Made by a program: the position numbers and the translations under genes
DNA from: Chlorobiaceae bacterium
Lineage (GTDB): Bacteria; Bacteroidota; Chlorobiia; Chlorobiales; Chlorobiaceae
DNA length: 34,560 nucleotides
Direction: 5' to 3'
Assembly: GCA_013334755.1 (NCBI GenBank)
Contig: JAAXWX010000021.1
Span: 1 to 34,560, forward strand
Shown here: piece after piece, positions 1 to 9,163 of the stretch
Position numbering within the stretch: position 1 is the stretch's first letter
Layout of the letters: each line of letters opens with the position of its first letter
Notes under the pieces: model-generated
Seen by the model: the letters and a program-made list of their open reading frames with translations, nothing else
The model's database searches: none
Told to the model about the DNA's origin: nothing

Positions 1-193
1 GAAGGCCCTCACTGATGGGAGCAACAAGCCTTGCGCTTGTCAGGGAATCTCCCGAGGCAAACAGAGTAACTTCATGGCCCTTCTCCACGAGCCCTTCGGT
101 TAAATGGTAGACAACCCGTTCTGTTCCTCCATATTTTAGCGGCGGTACTCGCTCCACTAAAGGAGCTATCTGGGCAATTCGAAGCTTTTTCAT
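1..193 (-). CDS. Glycosyltransferase family 4 protein, N-terminal fragment
   Basis: The gene runs off the left edge; only about 64 N-terminal codons are visible. The start reads MKKLRIAQIAPLVERVPP, followed by KYGGTERVVYHLTEGL and KGHEVTLFASGDS. That is the usual opening of a GT4 (GT-B fold) glycosyltransferase: a first beta strand, the glycine-rich YGGTERV loop, and the GHEVTLFASGDS strand. Such enzymes transfer sugars from nucleotide donors to glycans or lipids at the inner face of the membrane; the acceptor cannot be told here. The ATG overlaps the TGA of the upstream sigma-like gene in an ATGA, so translation is probably coupled to it. The catalytic C-terminal half lies outside the window. 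Confidence 0.82.
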   Translation of the reverse strand, partial: MKKLRIAQIAPLVERVPPLKYGGTERVVYHLTEGLVEKGHEVTLFASGDSLTSARLVAPISEGL

Positions 194-651
194 AGGGCAC
201 CGTCCTGCTTGATGGAAACACCATGCAAAAAACAGGCGTCAAAAGCGAGAATTCCCTCTGCAAGCGATTTTCGTCCTGTTGATAACCATACTCTGATAGT
301 GTCAAGGGGTTTGCCGATTATTTTCGATATCGCCCGGTGTTTCAGTCCGGAAATCGCTGAAAGCAAGACCGATAATTTGATATCAGCGTTCCGCCTAAGT
401 AAAGCCACCCCAACACGGTCAATAGGTTTAGATGACGATTTTGGAATACAGAATTCTTCGTCATGAGTGAATACATCTAAATAACACGCACGGAATGTCT
501 TGAATACCTCTCTTTCTGGCGTATCCATGTCAAGATTCAGATAAGTTCTGTTGACAAGCTCATTGGCAGCAGTTTCAGATCCGGTCATCCAATACGCAAG
601 GCTGTATATATCATCCATCAAATCTATCGCTGTTCTTTTTTCCATGATCAT
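190..651 (-). CDS. Sigma-70/ECF-like protein, divergent
   Basis: This 153-residue protein has the size and layout of a small sigma-70-family factor. Near the N-terminus, DDIYSLAYWMTGSETAANELVNRTYLNLD resembles sigma region 2 (helix, then DAEDLVQETFLR-like). Near residues 95-135, LSAISGLKHRAISKIIGKPLDTIRVWLSTGRKSL resembles a sigma region 4 helix-turn-helix (the usual form is G-Y-EIA-LG-GTVRSRL-RAR). Both regions are divergent, so DNA binding or core binding is inferred only. No anti-sigma factor is adjacent. Two ATG codons are possible (651 and 645); GGAGG at 656-660 lies 4 bases before the first and 10 before the second. Its stop overlaps the glycosyltransferase start by four bases, an odd pairing that suggests co-regulation with surface polysaccharide synthesis. 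Confidence 0.66.
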   Translation of the reverse strand: MIMEKRTAIDLMDDIYSLAYWMTGSETAANELVNRTYLNLDMDTPEREVFKTFRACYLDVFTHDEEFCIPKSSSKPIDRVGVALLRRNADIKLSVLLSAISGLKHRAISKIIGKPLDTIRVWLSTGRKSLAEGILAFDACFLHGVSIKQDGAL

Positions 652-715
652 GGCCCCTCCTTATATCGGGTCAAAAATGTCTTTAGCCGTTTTTGCAGTG
701 CAAAATTTTAAGTAA

Positions 716-762
716 GCTCAAACGGAGCACCAAATACTGCAACGACAGTGATCCGTTTGAGC
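716..762 (-). terminator. Inverted repeat, probable terminator
   Basis: A perfect 11-base inverted repeat (GCTCAAACGGA and TCCGTTTGAGC) is separated by 25 bases. It lies just past the stop of the coiled-coil stress gene on the minus strand and is followed there by a T-rich but interrupted tract. The loop is long for an intrinsic terminator, so a protein-binding or transcript-stability role is possible. Confidence 0.45.
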
Positions 763-779
763 ACAATGTCAGGCCCCTG

Positions 780-1070
780 TCAATCTTTTATCTTGTCTGC
801 AATATCCCGAAGCGCAGCACTTGATGACCGCAATGCACTTTCCACCCCATCCTTGAGCTTCTCCCACGCATCTTCTCCAGCCTCGCCCAGCTCCTTCAGT
901 TTTGCCTTCGTGGTATCAATTCCATGCTCAAAATCATCAAGCTGTTTAGCATACTTAAGATTTGCTTCGGCAGTAAAATTCTTTGCTTTAGCCCTGAATT
1001 CAGCCAGTCTGGCCTGCGCCAGCTCCAGCTCTGTCTCGGCTTTCTTTTTATAGGCTTCTTTCAGACTCAT
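780..1070 (-). CDS. sll1863-family coiled-coil stress response protein
   Basis: The 96-residue product is almost all charged helix. It begins MSLKEAYKKKAETELELAQ and continues with heptads in AKAKNFTAEANLKYAKQLDDF. It ends with LKELGEAGEDAWEKLKDGVESAL, which matches the C-terminal signature (LKEAG-DAWE-LK-GVE-A) of small sll1863-type stress proteins found in cyanobacteria and many environmental bacteria. No signal peptide or membrane segment is visible, so it is probably cytoplasmic or membrane-peripheral. The start at 1070 is preferred over an in-frame ATG at 1097 because GGAGAG lies a few bases upstream and homologues begin at this point. The biochemical role is not established for the family. 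Confidence 0.72.
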   Translation of the reverse strand: MSLKEAYKKKAETELELAQARLAEFRAKAKNFTAEANLKYAKQLDDFEHGIDTTKAKLKELGEAGEDAWEKLKDGVESALRSSSAALRDIADKIKD

Positions 1071-1188
1071 AGTATCTCTCCGTTGTTTACATGACATTCA
1101 AAAAATTTTCAGACCATCCTGATCTGATGGGATCCAGGATGTTTATTTAACTCCGCAAAACACAAGAAATGATTCTCTTGAGGATAAA

Positions 1189-1216
1189 AGAGAGCTGACA
1201 GTATCTCCAGCTCTCT
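1189..1216 (-). terminator. Rho-independent terminator
   Basis: A perfect 9-bp stem (AGAGAGCTG with CAGCTCTCT) encloses a 10-base loop. On the minus strand it is followed by TTTT and sits about 65 bases past the stop of the repeat-containing secreted protein, as expected for its terminator. Confidence 0.7.
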
Positions 1217-1282
1217 CATACCGATATCAATCAAATCACTCAACTTTTTTTATAGCGGTATATGGCAGTCGCCGTTTCGTTA

Positions 1283-1852
1283 TCATCTGCGATTTTGATC
1301 GTTTCTCTGCTGTTCCAGCGTTCTCCGGTTGTTTTCATCACTGCGCTGCTGTTCCAGCACTCTCCGGTTGTTTTCGTCGCTGCGCTGCTGCTCCAAGGTT
1401 CTCCGGTTGTTTTCGTCACTGCGCTGCTGTTCAAGGACTCTCCGGTTGTTTTCGTCACGGCGCTGCTGTTCAAGATTATTCCTCTGGTCGTGCCTGCGGT
1501 ACTCGGTATCACGGAAACTCCTTATCTCATCCAGACGATGTCTTCTGATTCTGGACGGAAGATGCTTTGCCTTGATAAAAGTCCAGGGCCCGCGGTAATT
1601 CGAAGAACGATACCAGGATCCGTTCTGGTTTAAATAATAGCGGTTATCATAGAAGACGATATCATAAGGGCTCCCTACTGCTACTGAAAACCCTTTTTCG
1701 GGCAGCATGATAAAGCTTGGACGCGACTCAAGTACAAAAGAGTGCCCATCCCGTGCGTTGATTAGAACACTTACTGCCCCTTTAGCCTCGGTAGCGGGAT
1801 TACCGAGAAGCATTCCTGCGACACCTGCAGCAAGCCAGATGGATTTTTTCAT
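1283..1852 (-). CDS. Secreted basic protein with 13-residue tandem repeats
   Basis: The 189-residue product starts MKKSIWLAAGVAGMLLG with an N-terminal signal peptide ending near NPATEAKG. A globular part (about residues 25-115) has an aromatic stretch, YDIVFYDNRYYLNQNGSWYRSS followed by YRGPWTFI, which resembles YXXGXW/GPW motifs of small periplasmic proteins; I do not recognise a named family. The C-terminal third is Arg/Asn/Gln/Glu-rich and built from about 4.8 copies of EQQRxDENNRRxL. The start at 1852 is chosen because AGGAG lies upstream and a signal peptide follows directly; an upstream ATG at 1927 would bury the signal. Export is inferred and the function is unknown. Confidence 0.7.
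   Translation of the reverse strand: MKKSIWLAAGVAGMLLGNPATEAKGAVSVLINARDGHSFVLESRPSFIMLPEKGFSVAVGSPYDIVFYDNRYYLNQNGSWYRSSNYRGPWTFIKAKHLPSRIRRHRLDEIRSFRDTEYRRHDQRNNLEQQRRDENNRRVLEQQRSDENNRRTLEQQRSDENNRRVLEQQRSDENNRRTLEQQRNDQNRR
1286..1471 (-). repeat. 39-bp in-frame tandem repeat, ~4.8 copies
   Basis: Four full 39-base units and a 30-base partial unit encode EQQR[RS]DENNRR[VT]L. The variable pair alternates V, T, V, T, which suggests two-unit (78-base) expansion steps. Because 39 is divisible by three, the tract also keeps other frames open; those ORFs are by-products of the repeat. Confidence 0.9.
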
Positions 1853-2065
1853 CGTTATTCTCCTGGTTAACATGTTGTTCAGAGTGATGAGAATACCGGT
1901 CTGCTGCCAACGTCCGACAACATGCAAGTACTACACCGTTTGTTCCGGTTTATCCGGGTTTATAAAAAAGCTGACATTCCTCTGTTTTTATTTCCAGCTC
2001 CTGAATTCCCTCTTGAGCTGCATAAAAACAGATCTATCTGTCCGACATCGGATGGCGGTTGTCAT

Positions 2066-2212
2066 TTATATGCGACGACCTTGAATGACACGAATCAGAA
2101 TGACCACGATAGCTATGACCAGAAGGGCATGAATAAGTCCTCCCATCGTATATGAAGTGACAAGGCCAAGAAGCCAGAGGACAACAAGTATGATTGCGAT
2201 GGTTTCGAGCAT
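2066..2212 (-). CDS. DUF5670 / lmo0937-family small membrane protein
   Basis: A 48-residue protein with two hydrophobic helices: LETIAIILVVLWLLGLV, a short turn SYTMGG, then LIHALLVIAIVVILIRVIQ, ending GRR. The WLLGLVTSYTMGG core and the IRVIQGRR tail are the signature of the lmo0937/DUF5670 family, common near stress genes in many phyla. The start at 2212 is chosen because GGAGAAG lies upstream and homologues begin MLxTIA; an earlier ATG at 2257 adds a basic tail not seen in the family. Its position near a coiled-coil stress protein fits a general stress role, which is inference. Confidence 0.83.
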   Translation of the reverse strand: MLETIAIILVVLWLLGLVTSYTMGGLIHALLVIAIVVILIRVIQGRRI

Positions 2213-2733: not shown

Positions 2734-3714
2734 TTAGATTCCAAGAAAAGAGGCGAGAGATTTCTTGTACTCCAGAAACGCTTCATGACCTTCCGGCGTT
2801 ATCCTGTAAATGGTTTGCGGCTTGCGGGACTGAATATCCTTGTCGCAACTGATATATTCTGCTGACTCAAGAATCTGCATGTGAACGCTTAAATTTCCGT
2901 CTGTTGTCCTGATCTGCTGCTTGATTTCCACAAAGCAGGCCTGACCAACTGAATCAAGATAGGAAAGGGCTGCAAACCGTATTCTTGAATGAATAACTTT
3001 ATCAAGCAACTGATGGTTAAAACCGGGATGCGCTCCACTGGCGGCAGGACGACCAATTGATTTTTTCCTTCTGGCCTGAATCAAACTGGCCTTAAGCGCT
3101 TTATGCTCTCGCTCAACCTGCTTTTGCATACTGATGTCCGACAACACGGCACGGCACTCCTGCCCATCATTACTGAGGGTAGCATCAATGCGAACCGTAC
3201 AGGGATGCAACACTTCGGCATTGCGGGATAAGAAAGGATCTGCAGAAGAAAAAGTTTCATCTATCAAAATTATAACCTCGCAGGAACTGTGATCGCTGGT
3301 ACTGAATACCCGCTCAAGCATCGCATTAAAAACCGGAAGGTCATCAGCAGCAATAAACCGTCCTAAACGATCGCCCATCAAGTGGGATCGATCGACACCA
3401 AGCAGCTTTGATGCGCTCAGATTTACCTTGCGTATGGTCCCCTCCCTGTCGAACGTCAGATAGCCAAGGGGCGCAAAGTCATAAAGCTCGGTGTAGCAAT
3501 CCAGACTCTCCTCCAGCTCTGTCCTTGCCTGAAGCAGTTCATCCTGCTGCATTTCAAGCTCAATCCGGTAAACTGCCAGTTCATGGATAACCTTCTGCAT
3601 TTCATCAGGAGAAGGGGAAAAATCTTTATATCGCTCTTTTTTTGCATTGAGTTGTGCTTCAGCCTGTCTGCGTAATACCTCTAAATCCGCCAAAGGTGCT
3701 CTTTTCCTTGTCAT
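2734..3714 (-). CDS. PAS sensor fused to a winged-helix DNA-binding domain
   Basis: The 326-residue protein has three parts. Residues 1-75 are a coiled coil (VIHELAVYRIELEMQQDELLQ). Residues about 72-200 are a PAS domain (YDFAPLGYLTFDREGTIRKVN). Residues 236-326 are a MarR/HTH_27-type winged helix: LLDKVIHSRIRFAALSYL, then TDGNLSVHMQILE as recognition helix and RKPQTIYRITPEGHEAF as wing. The first ~220 residues are collinear with the hybrid kinase encoded at 7376-9163. Between PAS and winged helix there is a degenerate H-box (SIGRPAASGAHPGFNHQLL), but no ATPase domain. It therefore probably acts as a one-component PAS-regulated transcription factor. The start at 3714 overlaps the CheB-CheR gene stop (ATGA), indicating coupling; an upstream start at 3822 would overlap it by over 100 bases. 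Confidence 0.8.
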   Translation of the reverse strand: MTRKRAPLADLEVLRRQAEAQLNAKKERYKDFSPSPDEMQKVIHELAVYRIELEMQQDELLQARTELEESLDCYTELYDFAPLGYLTFDREGTIRKVNLSASKLLGVDRSHLMGDRLGRFIAADDLPVFNAMLERVFSTSDHSSCEVIILIDETFSSADPFLSRNAEVLHPCTVRIDATLSNDGQECRAVLSDISMQKQVEREHKALKASLIQARRKKSIGRPAASGAHPGFNHQLLDKVIHSRIRFAALSYLDSVGQACFVEIKQQIRTTDGNLSVHMQILESAEYISCDKDIQSRKPQTIYRITPEGHEAFLEYKKSLASFLGI

Positions 3715-6700
3715 GAAGGGTCTTCCTGCTTTATGCAAGTGTCCGGACGGGACCGGAAAGATTTTATATCGACAAATGTCATGTAAACCTGATAAGGCGC
3801 GGCCATTCCTGACCGGAACCATGGCAGCGCGTTTATCCTGATCCAGCGGCAGTGATTGTGTCCGGGCTGAAAAACGCCGATGACAACCCCTCTTACGGGT
3901 TGGGCTGTACGCAACACAATAAACGCAGGATGCTCTTCGAACGGAAAATCGGAACCATCCTCCCGAACAAGTTTCCAGCGAAGTTCGGCAGATGTTTTGC
4001 CCTGCATCTCATCTCGGGAAAACTCTAAAATACGTTCTGCCTCCCGATTTGCCATAAGAATTCTTCCTGCAGAATCCAGGAGCAGGGCGCCATCGGGTAT
4101 TGCTTCAAACAAAAAACGAAAACGATCTTCACTCTCTTTCTGAGCCGCCTCAGCCTCTTTACGGGCGGTGTTATCTCTGGCAACAGTGATAACACCGATC
4201 ATTTCACCGCTCACACTTCTCAAAGGCTTTGCTATAAGGTCATAAAACCGGGAACTGCCATTTGGCCGTGTAATCATCAAATTGCTGTGTACGCTCTCCC
4301 CAGTTGTAAAGACTTTTCGTTTGACGTCCATCAGTTCCGCTGCGTTCTGCATCCCAGGCAGTTCATCATCCCGCCTTCCGATTGAAGCTGAAGCATGGAA
4401 CTCATGATGAGGATCGTAGAACCAGAGATAACGGAACGCCTTGTCAACAGCAGCAACAATGATACCCGAACTTTCAATTGCAGCCTGAAGACGCTCTTCG
4501 CTCTCCCGGAGGTTCTCTTCAAGCTTTTTTGCAACACTGATATCACTGAAGGTTATCACCAGACCGACTATCCGGTTTTCCTGGGTTCGGTATGGCATGA
4601 TCTTCACGCTGAACCAGCGCCCATTACTGGCTGAAACCTGTTTTTCACTGAACACAAGAGTATGAAGAACCTCCCTCGCATCATCAGCCAAAGCAGGATA
4701 ATGCAAATCGGTCACAATATCGGTTATGGGGCGCCCTACATCACTGGCAATCAGTTTGATAATAGAGGCCGTCCGTGTAGTAAAACGGCGGATGTTGAGC
4801 GCGTCATCAAGAAACAGTGTTGCAATATCCGTGCTGTTCAGCAGGTTTTTCATGTCATTGTTTGCCTGTGACAGGTCACTCACCTTCGACTGCAGTTCGT
4901 GATTAACCGTCTGCAGCTCTTCGTTCATGGACTGCATCTCCTCCTTGGAAGTGGTCAGTTCCTCATTGGTGCTCTGTAATTCTTCGTTAGCCGACTGCAT
5001 CTCTTCATTGGTTGATTTAAGCTCTTCCTGTGAAGTCTGCATCTCCTCACGGATACTCAGGATCTCATCCCGTGCCTGACTCAGCTCCTGCTCAAGCAGT
5101 ACCAGCCGGTTTCCCCCTGTATCAGCAGAGAGTGCCGGATCCAGTACTGTTCCTCCATCAACCCTTTCAAAATCGGCAAACACAATCAAAACCAGACCCC
5201 GTAATGCATCAGGCTTTTCAAGCAACCTGACAGTCAGATTGACGACCTGGGTCTCTCCATTCAACGTGACACTCAATCCTTTTTTTGTGACAGCTCCTTT
5301 TTGACGGAGTGCATTCCCGAACATGAGATTCAGTTCATATCGAAGCCCTTCGCGAGCCATGGCAAAAATATTCCAGTTGGCCTTTCCTGCCGCAGGCTCA
5401 AGATACTTGCCTGTATGACCGCTGATATAGATGATATCCCCTTTGTCAGTGGTCAGCACTGCGGAAGGTGTATAATGCTCAAGGAGAAGCTGATCAGTCA
5501 TGGACTGCAGGTTGATTGCAGAGGTTTTTGATTGCGGCTGATCGGCCGGAACATCCTGAAGCACAGGCAAAGAATGGGTAAATGAAAAGGGTAAGGCAAG
5601 GGGCTCCGGACGAACTCCGTGGTGGAGTTTGCTGAAAAGCCGTGTTTTACCATCAAGCGACTTGAAAAGATGGGTAAATGAGCCCAGACTCTCGGCACTC
5701 CCCAGAAAAAGAATGCCTCCGGGATTAAGACTGTAATGGAAAAGCGGAATAAGCTTTTTCTGCAGTTCAGGCTCCATATAAATAAGCAGGTTCCGGCAAA
5801 TCAGTATGTCAAGCTTGGTAAAGGGAGGATCCATGATCACATTCTGGGGCGCAAAGACTACCATTTCACGGATCTCCCGCGATATCCTGTAGCCATTATC
5901 GTCACGCTCAAAGAACCGCCGCAGCCTTTCCTGTGAGACTTCTGTTGCAATATTGAAGGGGAAGCATCCTGCACGGGCTTTGTCGATGGCATCTTTATCC
6001 AGGTCGGTTGCAAATATCTGCAATCTGAAATTCCCGGTAGGCTTAACCGATTCGATTGTCTCCTTGAATATGATTGCAAGTGAGTAGGCCTCCTCACCAG
6101 AGGAACAGCCAACCACCCAGGCCCTCATGACACCTCCGACAGACCTGGCTGCAAGCAGGGATGGAATTGCCTTCAGTTTCAAAGCTTCCCACACAGCCGG
6201 ATCGCGGAAAAAACTTGTTACTCCTATCAGAAGTTCTTTGAAAAGCAGATTGGTCTCATGGGGGTTTTCCTGCAGAAAGCGGACATAGTCAGCTATTTTT
6301 TCAATCTGATGAATACCCATACGTCGCTCAATCCGGCGGTAGATCGTGCTTTTTTTATAGAGCGAAAAATCCTGGCCGGTATGGGTACGCAACAGTATCA
6401 CCACTTTTTCCAGACCGCTTAACGCTCTCTCTTCCAGCGGAAGATCCTGTTTGACTGCTGAAGAAAAATGTTTGAGATAAGAAAGGATTTTGGCGGGAAG
6501 TTCTTCGACTGGAGCGATAATGTCTGCCTGACAGGCATCTATCGCACTGCGCGGCATACCATCAAACTTGGCTGATGAGGGATCCTGTACAAATATTCCG
6601 CCGCCTTTTTCTTTGATGGCGCGCAAACCAAGACTCCCGTCGGAACCCATGCCTGAAAGAATAACACCGATGCTTTGCTGCTGCAGATCGTCGGCAAGCG

Positions 6701-7133
6701 AGTGAAAAAAATAATCAATGGGGAGACGCAGCCCCCGGGGCTCTACAGGATCCAGTAAATGCAGTATTCCATGCAGCAGAGACATATCCTTGTTCGGAGG
6801 AATGACATAGACATGATCCGGCTCAATTCGGAGGCGATCACTGACCTGAACAACAGGTATGGCGGTAACCCGCTGCAACAACTCCACCATAATCCCCTTA
6901 TGGGTCGGATCAAGATGCTGCACAATCACAAAAGCGATACCACACTCTGCCGGAACATTTTTCAGGAAAATTTCCAGTGCTTCCAATCCTCCGGCTGATG
7001 CACCAATACCGACGACAGGGAAATACGTTTCCCCTGTTTCAAGAGATGAAGTGCCTTCAATCTTTTTTGTTTTATGGCTGCTGGGTAACTCTTTCTTCAT
7101 CATGGCACTCTGTTTTTTGCTGGTATTGGACAT
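3711..7133 (-). CDS. CheB-CheR-PAS fusion signalling protein
   Basis: This 1140-residue multidomain protein starts with a CheB methylesterase domain (residues 37-220). Its expected catalytic residues are visible: Ser46 in GASAGG, His73 in QHLDP and Asp165 in GMGSDGS. A CheR methyltransferase follows (about 240-500; RRIERRMG, SFFRDP, VGCSSGEEAYS, FATDLDKDAI, ICRNLLIYM). Then come a PAS-like region, a long E/Q/S/N-rich coiled coil (EEMQSANEELQSTNEEL), and three more PAS domains. Many relatives end in a histidine kinase; this one ends after the last PAS domain, so output must go through partners. The next gene, overlapping by four bases, is the PAS-winged-helix regulator, a likely partner. Neither start candidate (7133, or MMKK at 7103) has a clear Shine-Dalgarno sequence. 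No chemoreceptor or CheA is nearby, so a non-chemotaxis role is inferred. Confidence 0.92.
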   Translation of the reverse strand: MSNTSKKQSAMMKKELPSSHKTKKIEGTSSLETGETYFPVVGIGASAGGLEALEIFLKNVPAECGIAFVIVQHLDPTHKGIMVELLQRVTAIPVVQVSDRLRIEPDHVYVIPPNKDMSLLHGILHLLDPVEPRGLRLPIDYFFHSLADDLQQQSIGVILSGMGSDGSLGLRAIKEKGGGIFVQDPSSAKFDGMPRSAIDACQADIIAPVEELPAKILSYLKHFSSAVKQDLPLEERALSGLEKVVILLRTHTGQDFSLYKKSTIYRRIERRMGIHQIEKIADYVRFLQENPHETNLLFKELLIGVTSFFRDPAVWEALKLKAIPSLLAARSVGGVMRAWVVGCSSGEEAYSLAIIFKETIESVKPTGNFRLQIFATDLDKDAIDKARAGCFPFNIATEVSQERLRRFFERDDNGYRISREIREMVVFAPQNVIMDPPFTKLDILICRNLLIYMEPELQKKLIPLFHYSLNPGGILFLGSAESLGSFTHLFKSLDGKTRLFSKLHHGVRPEPLALPFSFTHSLPVLQDVPADQPQSKTSAINLQSMTDQLLLEHYTPSAVLTTDKGDIIYISGHTGKYLEPAAGKANWNIFAMAREGLRYELNLMFGNALRQKGAVTKKGLSVTLNGETQVVNLTVRLLEKPDALRGLVLIVFADFERVDGGTVLDPALSADTGGNRLVLLEQELSQARDEILSIREEMQTSQEELKSTNEEMQSANEELQSTNEELTTSKEEMQSMNEELQTVNHELQSKVSDLSQANNDMKNLLNSTDIATLFLDDALNIRRFTTRTASIIKLIASDVGRPITDIVTDLHYPALADDAREVLHTLVFSEKQVSASNGRWFSVKIMPYRTQENRIVGLVITFSDISVAKKLEENLRESEERLQAAIESSGIIVAAVDKAFRYLWFYDPHHEFHASASIGRRDDELPGMQNAAELMDVKRKVFTTGESVHSNLMITRPNGSSRFYDLIAKPLRSVSGEMIGVITVARDNTARKEAEAAQKESEDRFRFLFEAIPDGALLLDSAGRILMANREAERILEFSRDEMQGKTSAELRWKLVREDGSDFPFEEHPAFIVLRTAQPVRGVVIGVFQPGHNHCRWIRINALPWFRSGMAAPYQVYMTFVDIKSFRSRPDTCIKQEDPS

Positions 7134-7375: not shown

Positions 7376-9163
7376 TCAAGCTCCAGGAAAGGCCTCCGTG
7401 TCAAGCAGGTCACGCACCTTGCAGGCAAGCTCAATCCGGCGGAAGGGTTTTCCAAGAAAATTGACACTTTGAACCAGTACTTCATGTTGCGCAAAAGCGT
7501 CAGCCGAATATCCGGATATGAATAAAAGTTTCAGTCCCGGATGCCTCTTTATGATTTCCAGAGAAAGATCCCATCCGTTCATACCGGGCATGATCATATC
7601 GGTAACGAGCATATGAATGATATCGGAATACTCGGCGGCGAGTACAATTGCAGCTGAAGATGATGATGCCGCCAGAACCTTGTAGCCGAAACTTTCAAGA
7701 AATTTCCCGGTAATTTCCCTTACAGAATCATCATCTTCCACGAGAAGGATGGTTTCATCACCACGGGGAGCCTCAAGCGGCTCTGTTTCTGAACCCCTTC
7801 TAACGGCCTCATCTTTGCTGCGGGGCAAATAGATTTCAAATGTCGTCTCTTCCCCTTCCTGGCTGAACACTTCAATAAATCCCTTATTCTGACTGACTAT
7901 ACCGTATACCGTCGCAAGACCGATTCCATTGCTCTCTACCTTGGGCTTGGTTGAAAAGAAAGGCTCGAATATAGAGCCGATTGTCTGTTTGTCAATACCC
8001 CGACCGTTATCGTGAACCACCAACTGTACATAATCGCCGGGAAGAGATTCGGGGTGGCTCCGGCTATATGATGCATCCACAACGACATTGCGGGTTTCAA
8101 TGGACAGTACACCGGCACCCTGAATAGCATCCCGGGAGTTTACTGCAAGGTTGGCTATGATCTGGTCAACTTGTGAAGGATCTATCTTCACCGGCCAGAG
8201 ATCCGTACCGGGTGTAAATACAAGTTCAATATCCTCGCCGATCAGATGCCTGAGCATGTTCAGCATTTCTGCGACCGCCACATTGCAATCGAGCACTCTG
8301 GGCTCAACGGTCTGCTGCCGTGCAAAGACGAGCAACTGATAAGGCAGTCCTGCGGCTTTAAGTACTGACATCCGAAGAGTGGCAAGTTTTTCCCTTATGC
8401 CGCTGTTCACTCCTTCAGCTTCGATCAAAAGGTCAATCTCACCAAGCATTATTTGCAGCATATTGTTAAAGTCGTGGGCCACTCCGCCAGCCAGCCTGCC
8501 GATTGATTCCATCTTCTGAACCTGAATTAAACGTAACTGAAGCTCTGCATTTTCTCGCTCGACCTGCTTCTCGCGGCTTATATCCGAAACGACAGTCCGG
8601 CATTCCTGGCCGTCACTGCTGGCGACAGCATCAATACGAACAATACGATCAGGTACAGCAACTTCTTTCAGCGACAAAGAAAGATCAGGCTGAAGTTGAG
8701 GATTTTCATCGTTGCGGAGCATAACTTCGCAGGATCTGTTACCACTGCTGCTGAAGACACTCTCAAGTAATGCATTAAAAACCGGAAGCTCATCAGCCGC
8801 AACATATCTCCCGAAACGATCACCGATTAATTCGGAACGATCCACTCCGATCAGCTTCGTCCCCGTAAGGTTGACCTGGAGTATCGTACCGTCCCGCGCC
8901 AACGTCAAATATCCAAGTGGAGCAAAGTCATAAAGCTCGGTAAATCGTTCCAGACCCTCCTCAAGCTCCTCCCTCGACTGAAGCAGCTCCTCCTGCTGCA
9001 TTTCAAGTTCGATCTGGTGAACCGCCAGTTCATGGATAATTCGCTGCATTTCATTTTGTGAAACGGATATATCAGGAATTTTTTTCTCTCTTGTTTTGAG
9101 GCGTGCTTCGGCCTTTGGACGCAAATCCGTAAAATCCGTAAAAAGGTTTCTGTTTTTTTTCAT
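7376..9163 (-). CDS. PAS hybrid histidine kinase with C-terminal receiver
   Basis: The 595-residue protein has an N-terminal coiled coil, a PAS domain (about 72-200), and a HisKA-type H-box with phospho-accepting His230 in GGVAHDFNN. The ATPase domain shows an N-box (NLAVNSRDA, ~338-346), G1 (DNGRGI), F-box (FEPFFSTK) and G2 (NGIGLATVYG). A receiver domain (471-590) has acidic EDDD, phospho-acceptor Asp522 in TDMIMPG, Ser550 and Lys572 in GKPF. No membrane segment is seen, so sensing is cytoplasmic. The AGGVAHDFNN box and receiver tail are typical of soluble hybrid kinases. The N-terminal half is a close paralogue of the PAS-winged-helix protein. Its ATG overlaps the stop codon of a decayed CheB-CheR-PAS 3' end, mirroring the arrangement at 3711-3714. 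Confidence 0.93.
   Translation of the reverse strand: MKKNRNLFTDFTDLRPKAEARLKTREKKIPDISVSQNEMQRIIHELAVHQIELEMQQEELLQSREELEEGLERFTELYDFAPLGYLTLARDGTILQVNLTGTKLIGVDRSELIGDRFGRYVAADELPVFNALLESVFSSSGNRSCEVMLRNDENPQLQPDLSLSLKEVAVPDRIVRIDAVASSDGQECRTVVSDISREKQVERENAELQLRLIQVQKMESIGRLAGGVAHDFNNMLQIMLGEIDLLIEAEGVNSGIREKLATLRMSVLKAAGLPYQLLVFARQQTVEPRVLDCNVAVAEMLNMLRHLIGEDIELVFTPGTDLWPVKIDPSQVDQIIANLAVNSRDAIQGAGVLSIETRNVVVDASYSRSHPESLPGDYVQLVVHDNGRGIDKQTIGSIFEPFFSTKPKVESNGIGLATVYGIVSQNKGFIEVFSQEGEETTFEIYLPRSKDEAVRRGSETEPLEAPRGDETILLVEDDDSVREITGKFLESFGYKVLAASSSSAAIVLAAEYSDIIHMLVTDMIMPGMNGWDLSLEIIKRHPGLKLLFISGYSADAFAQHEVLVQSVNFLGKPFRRIELACKVRDLLDTEAFPGA

Follow-up and report, generated by a model that had tools for sequence, protein, structure and literature searches.

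A PAS–HTH_34 fusion protein of Chlorobium, probably formed once from the PAS half of a hybrid kinase and a resident winged-helix gene

PAS one-component regulators are common, and conversions between two-component and one-component signalling are usually inferred from domain counts. The window analysed here (the whole stretch of 34,560 nt) is an entire contig of the Chlorobium-genus genome G000. An open reading frame at 2734–3714 (minus strand), correctly delimited in an initial annotation made from the letters alone, had been interpreted there as a PAS regulator in which a winged helix took the place of a kinase core.

Composition of the fusion protein

The gene encodes 326 amino acids and was assigned from its open frame, profile matches and collinearity with a neighbouring kinase. 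Its ATG at 3714 overlaps by 4 bp (ATGA) the stop of a gene for a 1140-aa CheB-CheR-PAS protein (CheBR; 3711–7133, minus strand, from its ORF and profile matches), and the same −3 spacing is common to most relatives located after CheBR. These observations support 3714 as the predicted start; an alternative ATG upstream, at 3822, is also present in the list of open reading frames.

In Pfam searches, residues 245–323 matched PF13601 over the full domain (E = 2.9e-31; score 107.9 bits, cut-off 27; profile positions 1–79 of 80), which places them in HTH_34, the Pfam name for the family that had been called HTH_27. The PAS assignment draws on both profiles and fold: PAS_8 (residues 74–125) scored barely above its cut-off (21.9 against 21.8 bits) and TIGR00229 (PAS) reached 29.2 against 22.9. 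No match to HisKA, HATPase or receiver was found in the fusion protein in the Pfam profile search, and the fusion does not qualify as a histidine kinase, having no HATPase_c and no phospho-acceptor histidine conserved among fusions. The profile search recovered the expected pairing of PAS and winged helix in one protein, i.e. a sensor and a DNA-binding domain without phosphotransfer parts, which is the domain arrangement of a one-component regulator.

An AlphaFold2 model (19 sequences, mean pLDDT 72, pTM 0.40; the relative domain orientation is not reliable) contained a long N-terminal helix (residues 36–80; 3475–3609, minus strand, as for all parts of the gene) running into a PAS fold (about residues 70–195; 3130–3507, also covered by PAS_8 and PAS S-box matches), a helix ending at residue 218 and, as had been anticipated, a complete winged helix (237–325). 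Matches of the fusion in the PDB were mostly PAS sensors. The intervening low-confidence stretch (218–238) spans the kinase H-box remnant and joint (residues 219–233, SIGRPAASGAHPGFN; 3016–3060), which is probably disordered. The part derived from a stand-alone HTH_34 gene (HQLLDKVIH onward; 2740–3015, by profile and sequence comparison) includes a putative recognition helix (residues 275–284; 2863–2892), identified from the model and from its strong conservation across all fusions. The stand-alone HTH_34 regulators, with PH1061 as a solved relative (PDB 1ub9; sequence match E = 0.0004), have a winged helix with the same TDGNLSVH..LE recognition segment. Unlike the fusion, the HTH_34 members found here in other genera are small and lack a sensor domain.

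Over ten pairs, dN/dS was about 0.17–0.30 in the PAS domain and 0–0.44 in the winged helix, and was more variable in the short linker than in both domains. The low values on both sides indicate that the PAS and winged-helix halves are both maintained by purifying selection.

Two parent genes and the joint between them

The neighbouring gene at 7376–9163 (minus strand) encodes a hybrid histidine kinase (PAS, H-box, HATPase and receiver), identified by profiles and trees as a sister paralogue of the PAS-donor kinase. Fusion residues 1–236 align with it almost without gaps at 58% identity, and the collinearity described in the initial annotation holds over this length, with YDFAPLGYLT at 78–87 in both; the DNA is 71% identical (444/627; E = 4e-80). 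In a PAS tree, the fusion PAS halves are nested among kinases of this CheBR-neighbourhood family. The same kinase family lies directly downstream of CheBR in the sister genus (CheBR–kinase order), and the fusion, which usually follows the CheB-CheR-PAS gene and often has no adjacent kinase, fills the slot held by a hybrid kinase in related operons. CheBR proteins beside fusions form one clade (98), separate from kinase-linked CheBR. The PAS hybrid kinases of the Chlorobiaceae CheBR neighbourhood are thus homologous to the fusion from residue 1 to about 231 and occupy the same operon slot, but the fusion lacks their conserved phospho-acceptor histidine, ATPase and receiver. Collinearity, profiles and the PAS tree bear out the proposal that a winged helix replaced the kinase core and that the PAS half descends from the hybrid-kinase family. 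PAS-only ORFs of about 210–220 aa were also seen beside CheBR (L201:3609-4241 in G047 and L097:3160-3825 in G035), the former being a truncated kinase by its tree position.

Stand-alone HTH_34 proteins, with called lengths of 105–126 aa in most cases, are mostly 54–71% identical to the fusion winged helix. They were found in 12 of 65 genus genomes and in all 21 sister-genus genomes; no sister-genus genome carries the fusion. Their locus is conserved as rlmN–HTH–nrnA–pepA (flanking genes that we take to be rlmN, nrnA and pepA from our own reading of the protein sequences). Since it occurs in deep branches of the genus (in a tree of rlmN, nrnA and pepA proteins) as well as in the sister genus, the stand-alone gene is ancestral. 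A winged-helix tree, based on about 100 columns, recovers the fusion sequences as a single clade (98/91; 99% of bootstraps) nested in the stand-alone branch of Chlorobium. On this sequence evidence, the fusion winged helix came from the small stand-alone HTH_34 gene resident at the rlmN–nrnA locus.

Most fusion genomes still have rlmN and nrnA adjoining without the HTH gene. Indeed, wherever both flanks were seen together in a fusion genome the HTH gene is absent from between them, except in G035, the only genome with both the fusion and the stand-alone gene; about 30 genus genomes have neither form. The rlmN–nrnA gap measures 113–446 bp in fusion genomes without the HTH gene (261 bp in G000), compared with 515–763 bp where the gene is present. 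As judged from this locus, the original HTH_34 gene is lost from its old position in most fusion descendants.

A partial HTH_34-like match with an internal stop, a possible pseudogene, lies away from rlmN at G072:C7:31100-31270. A palindrome, AAAAAAAGTACTTT, is a conserved feature of the rlmN–nrnA gap in two genera and is retained after loss of the HTH gene (e.g. L143, G000:C88:126098-126362). Lying upstream of many stand-alone HTH genes, it was considered as an autoregulatory site or dedicated operator and rejected: genomes that have neither gene retain it at rlmN–nrnA, the G003 group lacks it although the HTH gene is present there, and it is absent from fusion loci. The operator search identified no operator.

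At the joint, kinases read ESIGRLAGGVAHDFNNML, an example fusion reads ESIGEAGGGAFHNFNHQLLDKVIH and an example stand-alone HTH_34 protein starts with MKETLQADFNHQLLDKHIH. The fossil H-box seen here in the initial annotation proved half right: SIGR..A..AH of the fusion is kinase-derived, whereas HQLLDKVIH corresponds to the conserved N-terminal stretch of stand-alone HTH_34 proteins. ESIG stands at an equal distance from the PAS end in kinases and main-clade fusions. FN is common to both parents, which places the joint at that shared motif, and we infer a crossover at short homology ([D]-F-N).

Resemblance to the H-box was scored against shuffles upstream of FN, with FN itself left out, and rose above them across much of the main clade as well as in the deep-branching fusion G066c (ungapped p = 0.0002 in G080, 0.0006 in G083, 0.001 in G082, 0.0036 in G053 and 0.011 in G066c). 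The window remnant gave p = 0.43 ungapped, and about 5e-5 only after removal of a one-residue insertion, a gap chosen by hand. G066c retains ESI at the H-box position. The H-box histidine is kept only in the window, where the insertion follows it, and in G080; it is absent from the other fusions.

The distance from the PAS end to the H-box is fixed at 38 residues in every kinase measured, compared with 23–47 residues from the PAS end to DKVIH in fusions, and this variable length makes both phosphotransfer and a register-locked coil unlikely. An unconserved linker and a low-confidence model, unlike a register-locked signalling coil, would also suit a PAS half that serves only for dimerisation or for docking to CheBR, leaving the winged helix as a constitutive repressor. 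We regard this as unlikely, because the PAS half is under no less constraint than the HTH half and is present in all fusions, and we prefer a PAS-gated regulator.

Origin and distribution of the fusion

A single origin in the Chlorobium lineage is probable: the PAS half of a kinase was joined to the resident HTH_34, and the resulting chimera, a predicted one-component regulator, replaced the kinase. In the PAS tree, a single clade of all fusions was not rejected (p-AU 0.307). In the best PAS tree the main fusion clade is joined by the kinases upstream of CheBR, and four divergent fusions (G035 and three of G066) fall outside that group (92/57, weak). This leaves room for two separate events, each joining a kinase PAS half to this HTH_34 gene, one giving the main clade and one the G035/G066 group. 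Such a double event appears rather improbable, given the single winged-helix clade (98/91), the unrejected single PAS clade and the ESI that G066c also retains. A single clade of all kinases, in turn, was rejected (p-AU 0.008; a test chosen after seeing the tree), as would be expected if the kinases upstream of CheBR took their PAS half from the fusion gene by gene conversion or re-fusion. We doubt this direction of exchange, since a tandem kinase duplication before the swap explains the tree equally and the cores of that kinase clade are those of ordinary family members.

The window kinase is one of seven kinases whose cores form a well-supported clade (100/99); five of the seven were seen upstream of CheBR. 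The kinase PAS halves nearest to the fusions are those upstream of CheBR, including the window neighbour. The simplest reading of these sequences is that a kinase duplicated around CheBR and that its downstream copy became the fusion.

The full fusion was found in 22 of 65 Chlorobium-genus genomes, including named Chlorobiaceae and Chlorobium records from several projects, with further pieces at contig ends in G059 and G060; most of the genomes compared are metagenome bins. Its patchy occurrence across the species tree (rlmN, nrnA and pepA proteins) points to loss, to transfer or to a combination of the two. In a PF13601 scan of 148 phylum genomes, judged by open-frame length and three individual checks, the PAS–HTH_34 architecture was limited to this genus; the long PF13601 frames checked in three other phylum members all proved to be stand-alone genes. 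G066 carries four fusion genes (L106, L196, L197 and L198) and G001 two (L041 and L043), from duplication, transfer or bin contamination. Neither a description of the fusion in titles and abstracts nor a mention of PF13601 by name was found in the literature searched, which lay mostly outside subscription journals.

This distribution bears on the earlier proposal of a local swap, in which a copy of the adjacent kinase had its core exchanged in this genome. The nearest kinase PAS halves do include that of the neighbour, but the fusion is present in 22 genomes, many without an adjacent kinase, so that the occurrence far from a paralogous kinase named as contrary evidence was in part found. In the PAS-half phylogeny, in which the fusions are nested among kinases, the window fusion groups with fusions and the window kinase with kinases. 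As a recent event the local swap is refuted and very improbable; the sister relation of the paralogue clades stands. An assembly or sequencing join of two genes, named earlier as a possibility near 3040–3060 and suggested by the position of the ORF near a contig edge in several bins, has a negligible probability and is refuted by the same fusion in many independent assemblies and by purifying selection acting before as well as after the joint.

A search downstream of the fusion for repeats that might cause the contig ends found only the region of an lmo0937-family gene recurring. This gene (2066–2212, minus strand) encodes a small membrane protein (DUF5670), and a similar stretch has one further copy in G000, whereas some relatives have about three. 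The other small stress-type genes downstream in the window, for a sigma-70-like protein, an sll1863-family stress protein and a WXXGXW protein with C-terminal repeats, lie at 190–1927 (minus strand), and homologues recur beside fusions in other genomes. The downstream stress-type genes, several of them recurring near other fusions, are candidate targets only.

Predicted regulation and place among one-component regulators

The fusion is most likely a cytosolic PAS-gated one-component regulator, with predicted DNA binding and signal gating. The N-terminal half (long helix, PAS, signalling helix and start of the H-box) would have come from the hybrid-kinase family beside the CheB-CheR-PAS genes and been joined at [D]-F-N to almost the entire resident HTH_34 regulator of rlmN–nrnA. 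The chimera would then have taken over the kinase position downstream of CheBR, and the HTH_34 gene at the old locus would have been lost in most descendants. What the genes themselves document is the composition, parents, joint, operon slot, donor loss and purifying selection. The product would be soluble and dimeric through its helices and PAS; a cytosolic cue sensed by PAS (a small molecule, redox state or protein partner) would alter DNA binding by the winged helix without phosphotransfer.

The CheBR protein may provide an input to the fusion protein. The MCP signalling domain PF00015 was found in none of nine genomes, G000 included, compared with 7 of 14 controls. As the tested genomes have no chemoreceptor signalling domains, the CheBR gene that overlaps the fusion does not serve chemotaxis in them. 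It seems a doubtful proposition that the CheB-CheR-PAS methylation module, without chemoreceptors, acts directly on the one-component factor that replaced its kinase partner.

PAS-containing one-component regulators have been treated as a general class (Ulrich, Koonin and Zhulin 2005, as cited in PMC1183210). Like them, the fusion holds a sensor and a DNA-binding domain in one protein; it differs in its winged-helix family and in having traceable parent genes and a traceable joint. It belongs to a known class, with an architecture found in one genus and an unusually well traced origin. Here the two parents, the joint, the emptied donor locus and the operon slot are all identified, and one genome (G035) still has both genes. 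The finding raises the question of what role CheB/CheR enzymes have without chemoreceptors, and since parents, joint, locus and slot are all nameable, the rewiring is open to experimental test.
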